Assembly: GCF_009711165.2 (NCBI RefSeq)
Contig: NZ_WMID02000032.1
Span: 1 to 64,000, forward strand
Source of the DNA: Flavobacterium sp. MC2016-06
GTDB lineage: Bacteria; Bacteroidota; Bacteroidia; Flavobacteriales; Flavobacteriaceae
Direction: 5' to 3'
DNA length: 64,000 bases
The position numbers were made by a program, and so were the translations under genes. How positions within the stretch are numbered: the first letter of the stretch is position 1; every line of letters starts with the position of its first letter. A model generated the notes under the pieces. The model had not been told where the DNA came from, did no database searches, and worked only from the letters and a program-made list of their open reading frames with translations. This document shows, piece after piece, positions 1,785 to 63,718 of the stretch.

Positions 1785-1809
1785 AATGTTGCCAAATTAC
1801 AATTTTTTA

Positions 1810-1902
1810 AAATTCCAAATTCCAAAATTGATTGCTATTTTGAAATTTTGTATTTCTATACGAAGTTTTTATAATTGGAATTTGGAATTTAAAACTTGGA
1901 AT
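1810..1902. repeat. Inverted pair of TTGGAAT heptad arrays between bluB-cobT and cobU
   Basis: Two copies of ATTCCAA (1812-1825) face three copies of TTGGAAT (1875-1888 and 1896-1902). The arms 1810-1825 and 1875-1890 are exact reverse complements, 16 bases each, with a loop of about 49 bases. The array runs over the cobU stop codon (1889), so the last residues of CobU are encoded by repeat sequence. The same heptad occurs at 25686-25715 and 40528-40609, each time touching the 3' end of a minus-strand gene. Confidence 0.8.
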
Positions 1903-2413
1903 TTTTCCCTTTTATAGTAACCGGAATTCCAGAAACCATCAAGACAACCTCATCTGCTTTTGAAGCTAAAAATTGATTCATCCAGCCTTGCAGTTCTGTA
2001 AATTTTCTGCCAATGTGCGTTTCAGCATGAACGCCCATTCCAATTTCATTGGTAACAATTATTAAAGTTGCGTCTTGTTGACTGGCTATTTTTTCAAATT
2101 CAGCTTTGGCTTCTTCTAAAGATAAGGAAACATCATTTTTAGTATCAATGAAAAAATTCGTCAGCCAAAGCGTTACACAATCTACTAAAGCAACTTTTTT
2201 AGAAAAATCAATTTCACTCAAATGTTTTTCCTTCTCAATATTTGTCCAGCGTTCGTCGCGTTCCTGCTGATGTCTATCGATTCTGTTCTGAAAATCGGCA
2301 TCCCATTTTCTGGCCGTTGCCACATAGATAGGTGAATCAGATAGTTGTAAAGCTAATTTTTGGGCATAGCTGCTTTTTCCAGATCGTTCGCCTCCAGTAA
2401 TTAAGTAGATCAT
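1889..2413 (-). CDS. cobU: CobU: adenosylcobinamide kinase / guanylyltransferase
   Basis: A 174-residue enzyme of the nucleotide-loop assembly branch of cobalamin synthesis and salvage. It phosphorylates adenosylcobinamide and then transfers GMP to it. A P-loop is visible at GGERSGKSS (residues 7-15), and RIDRHQQER (44-52) holds the histidine expected to carry GMP. The segments VDCVTLWLTN and TNEIGMGVH are typical of the family. It is transcribed with the downstream BluB-CobT gene; CobS and CobC are not in the window and may lie beyond the left edge. The C-terminal tail after SGIPVTIK is encoded by a TTGGAAT repeat and looks like an appended extension. Confidence 0.93.
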   Translation of the reverse strand: MIYLITGGERSGKSSYAQKLALQLSDSPIYVATARKWDADFQNRIDRHQQERDERWTNIEKEKHLSEIDFSKKVALVDCVTLWLTNFFIDTKNDVSLSLEEAKAEFEKIASQQDATLIIVTNEIGMGVHAETHIGRKFTELQGWMNQFLASKADEVVLMVSGIPVTIKGKNSKF

Positions 2414-2420
2414 TTTATGG

Positions 2421-2664
2421 GTTATGGGTTATGAGTTATGGGTTATGAGTTATGAGTTATGGATTGCGGGTTATGGGTTATGGGTTTTGAGTTATGAATT
2501 ATAAGTTATGAATTATAAGTTATGAATTATAAGTTATGAGTTATGAGTTATGAGTTTTGAGTTTTGGGTTGCGGGTTATGAGTTTTTGGGTTTAGTTTGA
2601 AAGAGATATCTGTAATGTTTATGACGAACTTATAACTTATAATTCATAACTCAAAACTCATAAC
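2421..2664. repeat. Heptad tandem array GTTATGA/G (23 units) with five inverted units
   Basis: From 2421 to 2581 the sequence is 23 consecutive 7-base units, mostly GTTATGG, GTTATGA, ATTATAA and GTTTTGA, with no frame slips. After a 48-base spacer, 2630-2664 holds five units in reverse orientation. These pair with units at 2477-2511 over 33 of 35 bases. The array starts 8 bases upstream of the cobU start codon, and the inverted block ends 5 bases from the stop of the next gene. It fills almost the whole intergenic space, leaving little room for a classical promoter or riboswitch for cobU. Confidence 0.9.
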
Positions 2665-2669
2665 TTTTT

Positions 2670-3032
2670 CTAATAAGGACAATGTCTGCAGTCATTACCG
2701 CAGCAGGTGCCGCGTTTTAGATGAAACCATGATGTAAAGACATAATTTCCGTTTTCTATATAATAATCAATATCTTCGATTAGTTTTTCGGTTTTGGGTA
2801 AAGATATCGCTTTATTTTGAAGTGCTCTTTTTGGAGTCATAGTTTCTACGTAAGCATCGATTTTGTCTACGCAGGCTTCTTTAAAGCAAGTCGGGCAAAG
2901 ACAGTCTCCAACTTCAGAAAGATTGAATATAGGAGGAAAATCATTGCACCAACATTTGTTTTCAACAGAAATATCACCGCAGCTAAAAACAGACTCACAG
3001 CTTGTACAAACTTTTGTTTTTATGATATTCAT
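2670..3032 (-). CDS. Small cysteine-rich protein (CWC-like plus DUF5522-like)
   Basis: The likely start is the internal ATG at 3032, giving 120 residues; the upstream extension to 3134 is low-complexity and hydrophobic and runs over the likely btuF promoter. The N-terminal half has four or more Cys pairs (CTSC, CWC, CLCPTC) in the pattern of the Bacteroidota 'cysteine-rich CWC' family. The C-terminus ends CCGNDCRHCPY, as in DUF5522 proteins. It probably binds a metal or Fe-S cluster, but no reaction is known to me. It is divergent from btuF and upstream of cobU, separated from it by the heptad array. Confidence 0.7.
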   Translation of the reverse strand: MNIIKTKVCTSCESVFSCGDISVENKCWCNDFPPIFNLSEVGDCLCPTCFKEACVDKIDAYVETMTPKRALQNKAISLPKTEKLIEDIDYYIENGNYVFTSWFHLKRGTCCGNDCRHCPY

Positions 3033-3098
3033 TTTATAAAGATAAATTTGTTGATTTTTTGTAAGAATAAAATTAAACAAAAAAATTAGAATTTGCTT

Positions 3099-3106
3099 TA
3101 CCTTTG
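3099..3106 (+). promoter_or_regulatory. Candidate -7 element (TACCTTTG) for the btuF operon
   Basis: TACCTTTG matches the Bacteroidota -7 consensus TAnnTTTG and lies 96 bases before the btuF start. I see no convincing -33 element at the usual spacing, so the call is tentative. It would place transcription start near 3113, with the 31-base direct repeat inside the leader. Confidence 0.4.
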
Positions 3107-3133
3107 TCACTATTAAAAAAAATAATTGTATCA

Positions 3134-3192
3134 CGATACTTTAAACAACTAAAACAATACCGCGATATTGCTTAAATAACTGAAACAATACC
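3134..3192. repeat. Imperfect direct repeat in the btuF leader
   Basis: A unit of about 28 bases (3134-3161) recurs 31 bases later (3163-3192). The 21-base cores 3141-3161 and 3172-3192 differ at two positions. The second copy ends 9 bases before the btuF start codon. It could be a regulator site or a duplicated leader segment; no cobalamin riboswitch architecture is visible. Confidence 0.65.
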
Positions 3193-6753: not shown

Positions 6754-7059
6754 TCCTGCAAGGTTTCTAAAACCTTGCAGGACGTGAAAATTATATTTTT
6801 AGACTAATTTTTTCTTTACAGAAACATTTTTTTCATAATTTGGGTATTCAGAAGTTTATTGATTTTTAGGAACTAATCCTGCTGTCCTTCCAAATCTTTT
6901 GCTTTTTAAAGAAAAAAGCAAAAGGATTTTTCCTCCCATCAGGGCTAATACAGCTGTATTCACAAGAACTTTAGCGCTCCTGCAAGGTTTTCAAAACCTT
7001 GTAGGTTTAGAATTAAGTTTACATAAAATATACCTACAAGGTTTTGGAAACCTTGCAGG
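6754..7059. repeat. Three copies of a CCTGCAAGGTTTT palindromic element
   Basis: Near-perfect palindromes lie at 6754-6782, 6979-7005 and 7033-7059, all with arms of the type CCTGCAAGGTTT/AAACCTTGCAGG. They fill the 327-base convergent gap between btuD and trmL. Each would form a hairpin in RNA from either strand, so they probably act as REP-like elements and bidirectional terminators. I see no credible gene in this gap. Confidence 0.85.
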
Positions 7060-7069
7060 AAACAAAAGA

Positions 7070-7525: not shown

Positions 7526-7533
7526 TTTTTTGA

Positions 7534-7568
7534 ATTATGGGTTATGAGTTATGAATTATGAGTTATGA
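7534..7568. repeat. Five heptad units (GTTATGA family) upstream of trmL
   Basis: Five consecutive 7-base units (ATTATGG, GTTATGA twice, ATTATGA, GTTATGA) lie immediately upstream of the minus-strand trmL start, 8 bases away. They belong to the same family as the 23-unit array upstream of cobU, at the same distance from the start codon. Confidence 0.75.
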
Positions 7569-7599
7569 GTTTCCAAAAATTATCTAATTATCAAATTGA

Positions 7600-10133: not shown

Positions 10134-10170
10134 AAAAAAGGCTTTCTGGAATTTCCAGAAAGCCTTTTTT
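10134..10170. terminator. Bidirectional intrinsic terminator
   Basis: A GGCTTTCTGG/CCAGAAAGCC stem is flanked by an A-run on the left and a T-run on the right. It serves the SDR gene on the plus strand and the MepB gene on the minus strand, whose stops lie on either side. Confidence 0.88.
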
Positions 10171-14511: not shown

Positions 14512-16350
14512 TTAAAACGAAACGTTCAATCCAAAATTTAATCCCCATTGAAACTGGTTAAAAGATTGACTGTTTAATGGATTGATGTAATAATTCATAG
14601 CCGGTTCAACAAAAACATTAGTCTTCTTGTAAACACGATACTGTAATGTACTGCTCAAGGTAGAACCATAAACATAATCATTAGCATTAATATTTTGCCC
14701 TATCGAATTTCCGTCTAAAGCCACATTGTTAGAAATTAACTTACCAACAAAACCTCCGGTATTTAAATTGATGCTTGCTTTATTTTTATTAAAAATAGAA
14801 TACGAAACTTCCAAAGGCATTTCGATATATCTTAAACTTTGGTCTAAATTACCGCTCTTAATGTTATCACTTTGTAAAGCTTCTTTAGTACTACTCGTAA
14901 CCAGGATATAATTGCTGTTACTGGAAATTTGTGGTGCAGCGGCATTTCCAGCTTGATAATAATCTCCAGGAGCAAAAAAAGCATTGTTTTTTGCGCTCAC
15001 GTAAGATATATTGGCAACACTTTGCCCTAATTCATTTATTTTAACACCAGTACCCACTGCCCATTTATTACTAATCTTATATTTTGTTTTTACACCATAG
15101 GTGCTGCTTTGTTTAGAGTCGTTTACGTTACCTAAAGTCTTTTCGTTTCTATAATTTTCAGAATTTGCAACACCTGCAAAAACAGCTAGAGCCCATTTCT
15201 CTTTTTTTGCAAGAGCTTTCGTTTCTTTTTCTTCTTTTGTTTCTGGAGTAACAATTCCTTTTTCTAAGTTTTGAAGTTCGGCCAATTGAACAGAATCCTG
15301 CTTACTCAATACAACATCATTAAATTTAGAATTCTCTTTTGGAGTACTTGCTATACCTTTTTCAGTTGCAATAGTCTGGTTCTGTTGTCTCGTTTTACTT
15401 TCGTTTATAATGTTTTTACTTTCGCTTAAAGTTGGATTTAAAGAATTATAAACAACATTCGTACTGTTTTTAGAAATCAATTTATCATCAAAAATAGAAT
15501 TTGAAAGCTGTTTTTTTGAAACTGAATTGAATTTGTTTTGTTTGCCAAAAACAATCTTTTGTTCAGCTAAAGCCTGATTCGTATTTCTTTTTTTATTGTT
15601 TAAAATTTGATTTTTTGAAGCCGTATTAAAGGCATTCTCGTTAGAAGGAACATAGGTCTGTTCAGTCACAGCTTGATTTGTATTTCTTTTTTTACTGTTT
15701 AAGTTCTGATTTTTTGTTTCAGTATTAAATGAATTTTCATTAGCAGGAACAAAAGACTGCTCCGCTACAGCTTGATTTGTATTTCTTTTTTTACCATTTA
15801 AATTATGGTTTTTTGAAGAAGTATTAGATGCATTTTCTTCAGCAGAAACAAAAGTCTCTTCAGCAACTGCTTGATTTGTATTTTCTCTTTGAACGTTTTG
15901 TTTTGACTCTAAAGTGGTATTGCGAGTATTATTTTTAGTATTAGTCGCTGCTGTTTGTATTTCTTTAGTATTCTCTTTTTTAGAACCGTTTAAATCTTTG
16001 TTTCCAGATGCGCCTTTGCTAGTATTTGATTTTTCTAAAGTAGTATTCCCTTCGGTAGAAATGGTATTGTTTTTTTCTAAATCATTTTTATTCTGGTCAA
16101 GAACCACATTGTTGTTTTCAAGAGAACCATTATTGATATTTTTGATTCCAGAATTCGAATTAAAATGTAAAACAGAAAAAAGCCCCAAGCCCAGTGTTAA
16201 GCATGCAGCAGTTGACCACCAAAGAATAGCTCTTTTTTTCTTTTTAGGTTTGTTTAATTTCTCCTCAATTTGTCCCCATAGTTCTGGAGGCGGAATACTT
16301 GAAAAGTCTTCCATTGATGAAAAAATATCTTCTATATTTTGCTTTTTCAT
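14512..16350 (-). CDS. Anti-sigma-like membrane protein fused to a beta-barrel-like C-terminus
   Basis: A 612-residue protein encoded directly downstream of an ECF sigma factor with a 4-base overlap. Residues 1-40 are cytoplasmic and look like a short anti-sigma segment (EDIFSSMEDFSSIPPPELW). One membrane helix follows at about 41-61. Residues 62-385 are Asn/Lys/Ser-rich low complexity with four 33-residue repeats (156-287). Residues about 385-612 resemble an 8- to 10-stranded outer-membrane beta-barrel ending in aromatic NVSF. The pairing with a sigma factor is common in Flavobacteria. A protein crossing the inner membrane and also inserting in the outer membrane would need the repeat region as a periplasmic spacer. 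Confidence 0.75.
   Translation of the reverse strand: MKKQNIEDIFSSMEDFSSIPPPELWGQIEEKLNKPKKKKRAILWWSTAACLTLGLGLFSVLHFNSNSGIKNINNGSLENNNVVLDQNKNDLEKNNTISTEGNTTLEKSNTSKGASGNKDLNGSKKENTKEIQTAATNTKNNTRNTTLESKQNVQRENTNQAVAEETFVSAEENASNTSSKNHNLNGKKRNTNQAVAEQSFVPANENSFNTETKNQNLNSKKRNTNQAVTEQTYVPSNENAFNTASKNQILNNKKRNTNQALAEQKIVFGKQNKFNSVSKKQLSNSIFDDKLISKNSTNVVYNSLNPTLSESKNIINESKTRQQNQTIATEKGIASTPKENSKFNDVVLSKQDSVQLAELQNLEKGIVTPETKEEKETKALAKKEKWALAVFAGVANSENYRNEKTLGNVNDSKQSSTYGVKTKYKISNKWAVGTGVKINELGQSVANISYVSAKNNAFFAPGDYYQAGNAAAPQISSNSNYILVTSSTKEALQSDNIKSGNLDQSLRYIEMPLEVSYSIFNKNKASINLNTGGFVGKLISNNVALDGNSIGQNINANDYVYGSTLSSTLQYRVYKKTNVFVEPAMNYYINPLNSQSFNQFQWGLNFGLNVSF
15490..15885. repeat. Four tandem 99-bp repeats inside the barrel-fusion gene
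   Basis: Four in-frame 99-base units encode 33-residue repeats beginning (R/E)NTNQAVAEQ. Units 2 and 3 are most alike and unit 4 is the most diverged. The repeat lies in the predicted periplasmic linker, where unit gain or loss would alter linker length without changing the frame. Confidence 0.85.
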
Positions 16351-25370: not shown

Positions 25371-25421
25371 AGAGTTTTTTGTTTCAGGTTTAAAGTTTCA
25401 GGTTGCATAAAATACGTATAG

Positions 25422-25460
25422 ACCTTTGTCAAAGTTTTAAGCTTTGACAAAGGTTTTTTT
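25422..25460. terminator. Hairpin terminator after aarF
   Basis: ACCTTTGTCAAAG and CTTTGACAAAGGT are exact 13-base arms with a 7-base loop, followed by a run of T. It lies 52 bases past the aarF stop. Confidence 0.85.
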
Positions 25461-25464
25461 GTTC

Positions 25465-25553
25465 TGTCATTGCGAGGAACGAAGCAATCTCATTTGCTAA
25501 ATCAAGCTTTGTGGTTCGTTGTTAGTGAGGTTGCTTCGTTCCTCGCAATGACA
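25465..25553. repeat. Long REP-like inverted repeat (TCATTGCGAGGAACGAAGCAA)
   Basis: Two perfect 23-base arms (25465-25487 and 25531-25553) are extended by an imperfect stretch, giving an 89-base hairpin with a 43-base loop. The same CATTGCGAGGAACG family is widespread in bacterial genomes. A related single arm (TGTCATTTCGAGGAACG) occurs at 28169-28193. Confidence 0.88.
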
Positions 25554-25716
25554 AGATTGTACATTAAAAAGAGAATAAATCTGCTCAATCAGCAAAATCT
25601 GCGTAAGAGCAGAAATTTAAAATTTTGCAAGATTAGAATTTAAAGGCACATAAAACTTTGACAAAGCTTTCTTACCTCTAAACACTTGGAATTTGGAATT
25701 TCAAAAGATTGGAATT

Positions 25717-27473: not shown

Positions 27474-27571
27474 AATTCTCAATTATTACGACTATAGTTC
27501 TTATATACGAGATGTTTGCGTTAGGGGTTGAAGTGGAGCTCTTTTTATGTCTGGCTTTTTTTGCCAGATAT

Positions 27572-27606
27572 AAAAAAGCGGGAACGTAAAACCCGACCCG
27601 CTTTTT
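27572..27606 (-). terminator. Terminator after crtZ
   Basis: AAAAAGCGGG and CCCGCTTTTT arms form a GC-rich hairpin followed by an A/T tail on either strand. It separates crtZ from the SRPBCC-phrB pair, so the last two genes may have their own promoter or rely on read-through. Confidence 0.75.
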
Positions 27607-40493: not shown

Positions 40494-40527
40494 GATTTAT
40501 TTTTTTTGCTAAAATACAATAAATTAA

Positions 40528-40609
40528 ATTCCAATTTTAAAAATTCCAAATTCCAAAACTTAGATTAAATTCCAATACATTTTGGAATTTGGAATTTGAG
40601 TATTGGAAT
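40528..40609. repeat. Inverted pair of TTGGAAT heptad arrays
   Basis: ATTCCAA occurs at 40528-40534, 40543-40556 (two copies) and 40569-40575. TTGGAAT occurs at 40582-40595 (two copies) and 40603-40609. The copies at 40543-40556 and 40582-40595 form a perfect 14-bp stem. The right arm touches the stop codon of the S4 gene at 40610. It is the same heptad family as at 1812-1902 and 25686-25715. Confidence 0.85.
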
Positions 40610-40999
40610 TTAATTTTCATCTTCCTCTTCAGGAATTTCATTTCCATATTCGTCAATATCCCTTCTGTCTTTTTTTGTAGGACGTCCGGTACCGCTTTTA
40701 CGATAATGTTCTTTAGAAAGTTTTAGTAACTCTAAATGCGCATAAGCTTCTGGTGAAGTTTCATTTTTGCGATATATATCAACAAGTTTTGCGCCAACTC
40801 GGCTTTCTGGAATGTCGAGTACGGTTATAATTTGTGTGATTTGATCTTTTCTAAAGGTAATTCTATCGGTAGGAAAAACCTCTTTAGATGGTTTTGCAAC
40901 TTGTCCATTTACAGTAATATGGTTTTTTTTACAAGCCTCAGTTACCATGTTTCTGGTCTTGTAATAGCGCACGCACCATAAGTATTTATCTATTCTCAT
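40610..40999 (-). CDS. S4-domain RNA-binding protein (Hsp15/HslR type)
   Basis: A 129-residue protein when started at the internal ATG (MRIDKYLWCVRYYKTR); the reading frame extends 15 codons further but that part is unlike the family. The S4 domain occupies residues 1-60 (KTRNMVTEACKKNHITVNGQVAKPSKEV). A basic linker and an acidic tail (YGNEIPEEEDEN) follow. Hsp15 rescues stalled 50S subunits carrying nascent chains. The start region lies only 80 bases from the divergent FKBP lipoprotein gene. Confidence 0.88.
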   Translation of the reverse strand: MRIDKYLWCVRYYKTRNMVTEACKKNHITVNGQVAKPSKEVFPTDRITFRKDQITQIITVLDIPESRVGAKLVDIYRKNETSPEAYAHLELLKLSKEHYRKSGTGRPTKKDRRDIDEYGNEIPEEEDEN

Positions 41000-41078
41000 A
41001 ATTTTTCCAAAATCAAAGTTAAATTCTTTACAAAAATAAATCAATATTGTATCTTGCGCACCTAAAAAATTAACAATA

Positions 41079-47305: not shown

Positions 47306-47310
47306 AAAGA

Positions 47311-47402
47311 GTTTCAAGTTTTTTTAGTTTCAAGTTTCAAGTTGCTTAAGAGCAGCCTGAAACTTGAAACTTGAAACAAAAAGAAACTTTAAAACTTGAA
47401 AC
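47311..47402. repeat. Inverted pair of GTTTCAA heptad arrays between tgt and lptF/G
   Basis: GTTTCAA occurs at 47311-47317 and 47327-47340 (two copies); the reverse TTGAAAC occurs at 47364-47377 (two copies) and 47396-47402. A 17-base perfect stem pairs 47327-47343 with 47361-47377. It fills the gap between two co-directional genes, beginning 6 bases past the tgt stop. Confidence 0.85.
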
Positions 47403-47414
47403 TAAAGATATTAT

Positions 47415-63617: not shown

Positions 63618-63718
63618 AATTTTAATGTGTTTTTGTAGCAGGCGTCCTGAATTAAATCAAAGGAACTTAAAAGCCATACTCCAAGGTTATATAAATAATT
63701 TTTTAACCTAAAGAATTA

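Follow-up and report, generated by a model that had tools for sequence, protein, structure and literature searches.

Inverted heptad arrays in the window

The window, by which we mean the whole stretch of 64,000 nucleotides analyzed here, contains four gaps (1785-1888, 2414-2669, 40494-40609 and 47306-47414) in which arrays of 7-base units face each other as inverted arms, as the original prediction had it (Table 1). Co-directional open reading frames flank each of these gaps, and the arms indeed reach codons, overrunning a stop codon at sites 1 and 3 and extending to a start codon at site 2. Based on Pfam, the neighboring genes are a nitroreductase/DBI-PRT gene and a CobU gene at site 1, the CobU gene and a DUF5522 gene at site 2, a phosphoribosyltransferase and an S4-domain gene at site 3, and tgt and lptF at site 4. 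For the Tgt protein, the top named matches come from Flavobacterium, with 98% in F. saccharophilum and in sp. SLB02.

Table 1. Heptad arrays of the window and the empty site at rpmI-rplT
Feature	Position	Strand	Remark
Site 1, left arm, AAATTCC units	1806..1826		
Site 1, right arm, TTGGAAT units	1875..1904		overruns stop codon of CobU gene 1889-2413 (-)
Site 2, long GTTATGA array	2415..2593		extends to CobU start codon
Site 2, inverted arm, AACTCAT units	2627..2666
Fifth site, unpaired TTATGAG array	7528..7571		newly found; co-directional gap, beside SpoU methylase start codon
GTTTCAG array	25374..25407		newly found; directly past stop codon, convergent gap 25371-25716
TTGGAAT arm	25686..25716		newly found; beside the opposite stop codon, convergent gap 25371-25716
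Site 3, left arm: outer AAATTCCAA, spacer, AAATTCC doublet	40521..40557
Site 3, right arm	40580..40616		overruns stop codon of S4-domain gene 40610-41044 (-)
Site 4 (tgt-lptF gap), left arm, GTTTCAA units	47310..47343
Site 4 (tgt-lptF gap), right arm, TTGAAAC units	47358..47406
Empty site TAAT	63715..63718	-	between rpmI stop codon and rplT leader

The inverted arms match over 20 nt with 95% identity at site 1 (1806-1825/1875-1894), over 40 nt with 90% at site 2 (2503-2542/2627-2666) and over 25 nt with 92% at site 4 (47319-47343/47361-47385). At site 3 the full arms match over 37 nt with 76% (40521-40557/40580-40616), and their inner portions over 18 nt with 100% (40541-40558/40580-40597).

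Orthologous gaps in three relatives tend to carry arrays at the same places. An array was found in 13 of 17 pairs in which the window has one and in 7 of 81 in which the window has none (98 pairs, threshold 10), the pairs being non-independent as they derive from 38 gaps in the three relatives. At site 1 the same unit family is present in G008 and G015 and the sequence of G006 differs; at site 2, TTATGA-type arrays are found in G008 and G006 and other units in G015. At the fifth site, G008 has an array of 96 bases.

Periodicity, arm architecture and genomic position

Periodicity was examined in a sample of 1.264 Mb that comprises the window and stretches totaling 1.2 Mb of the 6.17 Mb genome. 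In this sample, period 7 has 35 exact tandem runs, compared with 9 for period 6 and 3 for period 8, and one order-3 Markov simulation yielded four exact period-7 runs. Within gaps, ungapped lag segments number 60, 5 and 13 for lags 7, 6 and 8 (controls: 1.7, 1.7 and 2.0). A lag-7 segment is present in 95 of 810 sampled gaps, whereas 10 dinucleotide shuffles gave a mean of 21.4 and a maximum of 28; lags 6 and 8 each reach 32 gaps, compared with 23.4 and 19.6 after shuffling. The excess of period 7 over 6 and 8, a comparison set by the original prediction, was thus seen in runs, lag segments and gap counts alike, and period 7 together with its multiples stands out in runs, in self-matches and against the shuffled controls.

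The commonest units in the sample are AAATTCC, AAAATCT, AAACYTG and AACTCAT, accompanied by many rarer ones, and the 15-mer TTGGAATTTGGAATT occurs 149 times in the whole genome (reversed control: 0). None of these four main units contains GGG on either strand. Exceptions are the variant AACCCAT, a single GGG in the array at 7528, and the array of site 2 (2415-2593), where GTTATGG variants place GGG at 7-base steps, nine in total; judging by these tracts, this array might form a quadruplex like the Xanthomonas repeats. Mutations are spread evenly across the seven positions (138/156 arrays, mean chi2 6.4, 6 df, at a low threshold that admits chance arrays). A conserved core of a fixed AACY followed by three free bases is unsupported, the best 4-base window scoring 0.693 both as observed and when permuted (138/156 arrays). 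Direct copies of TTGGAAT also recur at exactly 110 bases (G000 C8 57/167/277 and C11 158542/158652) and at 54 bases (G000 C3 62055/62109/62163), and these spacings may reflect larger tandem units that carry heptads.

Across the genus, the degenerate comb AACYNNN x4 was detected in 99 of 101 sampled Flavobacterium genomes, its 8-base version in 65/101 (partly AACT runs) and its 6-base version in 35/101; at class level, the AACYNNN comb was found in 93 of 149 genomes. AACY combs exceed the reversed control in most genomes surveyed, with the limit that the pattern was chosen and that a single long array is counted many times over through overlapping matches. With 1253 AACYNNN comb matches, G124, a class-level relative from outside the order, exceeds every Flavobacterium surveyed. 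Individual families are patchy: TTGGAATTTGGAATT is present in 68/101 and GTTTCARGTTTCARGTT in 64/101 Flavobacterium genomes, the latter with 354 matches in G000, 332 in G016 and none in 37/101.

Neighboring arrays of the same family in one gap are mostly inverted (22 of 27), the five direct cases all being AAATTCC, and within inverted pairs the order of the arms is nearly always fixed for a given family. AAATTCC precedes GGAATTT in 8/8 inverted pairs of the sample, and its inverted neighbors have the order -+ in 33/33 cases among the places listed, comprising 100 places from one search and a portion of those from another, which partly overlap the sample. Likewise, GTTTCA precedes TGAAAC in 8/8 pairs of the sample and in 7/7 among the partly overlapping places listed; the order is kept in 4/5 pairs for TTTTAGA and in 1/1 for AACTCAT. 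AAATTCC neighbors within 130 bases, among the places listed, comprise 33 inverted and 14 direct cases, and 29 of 43 AAATTCC arms listed there have a third unit 13-15 bases outward, past a T-rich spacer. The loops look dissimilar between loci. A fold z below -2 was obtained for 20/38 heptad gaps compared with 78/217 gaps lacking heptads. Some arrays are unpaired, and for these the A/C-rich strand in co-directional gaps is sense in 21 cases and antisense in 8. Complementarity of an arm to its own partner is no better than to arms from other loci of the same family (GTTTCA: 21.6 own, 21.8 other, p 0.55; AAATTCC: 22.4 own, 20.2 other, p 0.09), so that co-evolution of arms locus by locus was not found.

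A preference for gaps between co-directional genes, which had been part of the original prediction, did not hold. Among 822 sampled gaps (606 co-directional, with added gene calls including gene 2670-3134), strong arrays at threshold 12 occupy 42/606 co-directional, 6/99 convergent and 2/117 divergent gaps; convergent gaps are thus similar to co-directional ones and only divergent gaps are lower. The apparent preference arises because the gaps of this genome are mostly co-directional (606/822). The general process also proposed finds support as a tendency to heptads between genes, both in the sampled genome and in the genus. The scarcity in divergent gaps (2/117 versus 48/705, Fisher p 0.034; binomial p 0.0009 per base pair) is weaker at threshold 10, where arrays occupy 68/606 co-directional, 14/99 convergent and 10/117 divergent gaps (82/705 of the non-divergent ones), and the length-stratified odds ratio, using the initial gene calls, is 1.5. 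No such scarcity was found when stretches from 13 further Flavobacterium genomes were counted (27/441 co-directional, 5/84 convergent, 7/98 divergent). As far as a REP-like position is concerned, the scarcity in divergent gaps thus varies with the threshold and the set of genomes. Arrays show no bias toward either gene end, with 37 lying nearer the stop and 33 nearer the start codon (n=70). Targeting of a particular stop codon was also considered, and TAA is used at 46/60 stops of heptad gaps and at 597/744 others, which is no difference.

We also searched the gaps for TAnnTTTG, which we take to be the Flavobacterium -7 promoter box. Among co-directional gaps with a length of 60-200 bp, it is present in 1/27 with heptads and 73/267 without (p 0.0045, from two bins of length pooled after inspection) and, over 60-400 bp, in 6/38 versus 121/384 (p 0.062); gaps of 200-400 bp show no depletion (5/11 heptad, 48/117 other). 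On the antisense strand, no difference was seen over 60-400 bp (6/38 heptad, 63/384 other). As a check of the box itself, it occurs on either strand in 104/117 divergent and 21/99 convergent gaps. The fuller motif TTG-17 to 23-TAnnTTTG, with 2/38 heptad and 27/384 other gaps, is too rare to discriminate.

Hairpins at tgt-lptF and rpmI-rplT across Flavobacterium

The tgt-lptF gap could be read at 37 Flavobacterium loci, 28 of the 30 listed from one search and nine from another; it was picked for the array that the window carries at this place, and its persistence is therefore not a random sample. In 33 of the 37 loci the gap is at least 40 bases long, and in four it is under 40. The 33 longer gaps have a mean fold z of -3.6, with 26/33 below -2, and their best period is 7 in 19 cases, 8 in nine and none in five. 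In contrast, in the same loci the next gap past lptF and the neighbor that overlaps it, taken as a control, has a mean z of -0.74, with 5/31 below -2, and a best period of 7 in 3/31 loci. When unit types of 20 of the 33 loci were labeled by hand and by eye and placed on the LptF tree, at least nine changes among six unit types were counted. Steps of 8 bases (e.g., GTTTAATC) are found in some species (L180, L181, L173 and L195) where others have 7-base steps. In the control gap, a conserved TAnnTTTG-like box is visible by eye.

The rpmI-rplT gap drew attention as being conserved around an insertion. Of 61 genomes, 58 yielded L20, and all counts for this gap refer to the best 30 of the 58 loci. 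From the rpmI stop codon to the leader of rplT, the sequence is exactly TAAT in 8/30 loci, 73-85 bases long in 16/30 and 22-52 bases in 6/30; the genome of the window belongs to the eight with TAAT and has no hairpin here. Among the 16 long inserts, 14 have a fold z below -2 (range -1.9 to -5.6), and the best period is lag 7 in 11 and none in five. Their mean identity is 0.61 (shuffled: 0.52) compared with 0.90 for the adjacent leader in the same 16 genomes, and the unit types recognized by eye include GTC-bearing units, TAACTTC, TCAGT, GGTTGTTG and ATGTAAA. On a tree of the same operon, for which no support values were read and in which G066 has only 111 bases upstream, neighbors differ in state, with G072 empty and G006 full, and G030 empty and G079 full. 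No target-site duplication is visible by eye at this place, the one clean pair of empty and filled sites.

At rpmI-rplT, the 7-base unit looks less fundamental than the hairpin and its size. That related species have hairpins of other letters in both gaps suggests that it is the fold rather than the letters that is kept. Judged by the same comparisons, the hairpin is dispensable at these two gaps, because 8/30 rpmI-rplT loci are without one and 4/37 tgt-lptF gaps are under 40 bases.

The leader of rplT itself, about 95 bases long (63618-63714 on the minus strand, and L265-L294), shows about 90% identity across the 16 genomes that carry a long insert. Helices are predicted on the alignment of the 30 loci, no Rfam family is reported at the leader, and it may be an RNA for control by L20.

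Role, origin and relation to known repeats

We propose that the heptad elements are intercistronic RNA hairpins that resemble REP sequences in their place, have arms built of heptamers and are freely replaced in sequence, a reading to which we assign a probability of about 0.4. An imperfect palindrome of some 50-100 bp would take up a large part of the gap from a stop codon to the following gene. As the hairpins lie mostly in short promoterless gaps, they would be transcribed within an operon message or, in convergent gaps, at its 3′ end. Their likely job would be to influence the fate of the neighboring messages, e.g., by shielding the upstream message against 3′ decay; alternatively, they could mark a site of processing or partial attenuation at which transcription is not fully stopped. 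The letters would be nearly free provided that the arms pair. The 7-base texture would stem from replication slippage, which would favor 7-base units in many bacteria and permit quick rewriting of the arms.

A role in transcription termination had been suggested for these arrays, and bidirectional intrinsic terminators would likewise sit between genes; moreover, as in the genome's canonical terminators, A comes first and T last in the AAATTCC arms. However, a terminator scan restricted to loops of 3-8 bases, shorter than most loops here, returned no site in three regions holding the four gaps, while recovering a canonical terminator of the window at 10134-10170. Furthermore, only 2 of 19 sampled heptad hairpins are followed, on one strand or the other, by a run of five T no more than 12 bases away (GTTTCA 1/10, AAATTCC 1/7, TTTTAGA 0/2). 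Because of the missing scan sites and the rarity of T runs, terminators are the less likely reading, and the suggested role is unsupported. Hairpins moreover occur inside rpmI-rplT and tgt-lptF, and unless rplT has its own promoter, the hairpin in front of it cannot be a full terminator. We consider this reading clearly improbable. A neutral origin, in which 7-base slippage combined with template switching, the source of the inverted copies, litters, without any function, all gaps in which it harms neither a coding sequence nor a promoter, is somewhat unlikely in our view. Many bacteria have an excess of heptads (Mrazek 2007, through a passage of PMC4679880), mutations are even over the seven positions as in slippage products that decay, the arms of a locus are not matched to each other, and purifying selection could explain the shortage in divergent and promoter-bearing gaps. 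Yet the tgt-lptF gap folds strongly in 26/33 loci despite turnover of its sequence, compared with 5/31 for the control gap; the inserts at rpmI-rplT are uniformly 73-85 bases long in 16/30 loci; and a near-fixed arm order per family would not be expected from random template switching.

The elements could also be non-autonomous mobile or exchangeable cassettes, i.e., palindromes inserted or swapped whole without target duplication, like REP sequences or single-strand hairpin substrates. Exact TAAT empty sites opposed to inserts of 73-85 bases and alternating between tree neighbors speak for such movement, as do the dispersed families of fixed layout (outer unit in 29/43 arms and order -+ in 33/33, among the places listed) and the patchy copy numbers of GTTTCARGTTTCARGTT between genomes. 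On the other hand, exact AAATTCC, GTTTCA and TTATGAG doublets are absent within about 1.5 kb of the six Y1 transposase matches in the genome; of the four families searched, TTTTAGA has doublets near two of these matches (C30:46.7 kb). The lack of a target duplication by eye and the dissimilar loops also count against cassettes, and homologous exchange of a conserved ribosomal operon between species could yield the same pattern; mobility of this kind appears distinctly unlikely to us. A further reading would have small exchangeable hairpin cassettes defined by fold, length (about 75 bases) and 7-base step instead of sequence, with unrelated sequences of the same size gained, lost or swapped at one exact place behind the stop codon across the genus and retained to meet a need of the operon message for a hairpin; this, too, we regard as unlikely. 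Elements recognizable by fold, size and period alone would hardly be visible to sequence searches and are possibly absent from catalogues of RNA families and repeats. The rpmI-rplT and tgt-lptF gaps, with a hairpin present or absent in relatives, would serve as natural experiments on the role of intercistronic hairpins in Bacteroidota, and they also bear on why bacteria favor 7-base units.

REP/BIME palindromes sit between genes, both in operons and in convergent gaps. The heptad elements share with them and with REPIN-RAYT systems the form of intergenic palindromes in operons and convergent gaps; they differ in that the main heptad families were not found beside a Y1 transposase gene within the span searched (about 1.5 kb), in their tandem-heptad arms and in comprising several unrelated sequences. 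The STRR heptanucleotides of cyanobacteria, to which the original prediction likened the arrays, are likewise tandem 7-base units between genes.

The nearest described case is that of the GGGAATC heptameric repeats of Xanthomonas, which according to PMC4692102 form 70 and 75 close convergent pairs in two genomes, with one repeat per strand, lie in the majority between aligned genes and occupy places more conserved than control gaps. Common features are the intergenic location, the pairing, one orientation and conserved places (PMC4692102). In contrast to that single G-rich, quadruplex-forming family (PMC4692102), the families of Flavobacterium are several, AT-rich and for the most part free of G-tracts, and its species differ in the unit that they have at one place. 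Direct TAACTGA repeats are described in PMC4679880 for Beggiatoaceae, Cyanobacteria and some Bacteroidetes. They are likewise intergenic 7-base arrays, patchy among species and in some genomes mixed with other heptamers, but in the genome described there they are mostly direct and located just before start codons, whereas the Flavobacterium arrays are often inverted and have no privileged unit. TAACTGA does not appear in the list of the sample's 40 commonest doublet units; among the places listed, short runs of it occur in G082 and G117. The long simple sequence repeats of Mrazek 2007 share the 7-base excess, for which slippage was proposed as the cause, and the passage in PMC4679880 that describes them does not mention palindromic pairing or retention of place. 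Our literature search, which was incomplete and does not imply absence from print, found no account of such arrays in Flavobacterium.

Other repeats and RNAs accompany the heptads. Further dispersed palindrome families, CCTGCAAGGTTTCCAAAACCTTGTAGG and TGTCATTGCGAGGAACGAAGCAATC, occupy gaps at 6978-7060, at 25465-25553 and in other parts of the sampled genome, and families with steps of 9-10 bases, e.g., CACGAATTA and GCAGATTTA, are also found in gaps. Within the window, Rfam identifies two Flavo-1 RNAs (6871-6950 on the minus and 27513-27602 on the plus strand), and the open reading frame at 14512-16350 contains a 99-base tandem repeat of 3.3 copies at 15560-15883.
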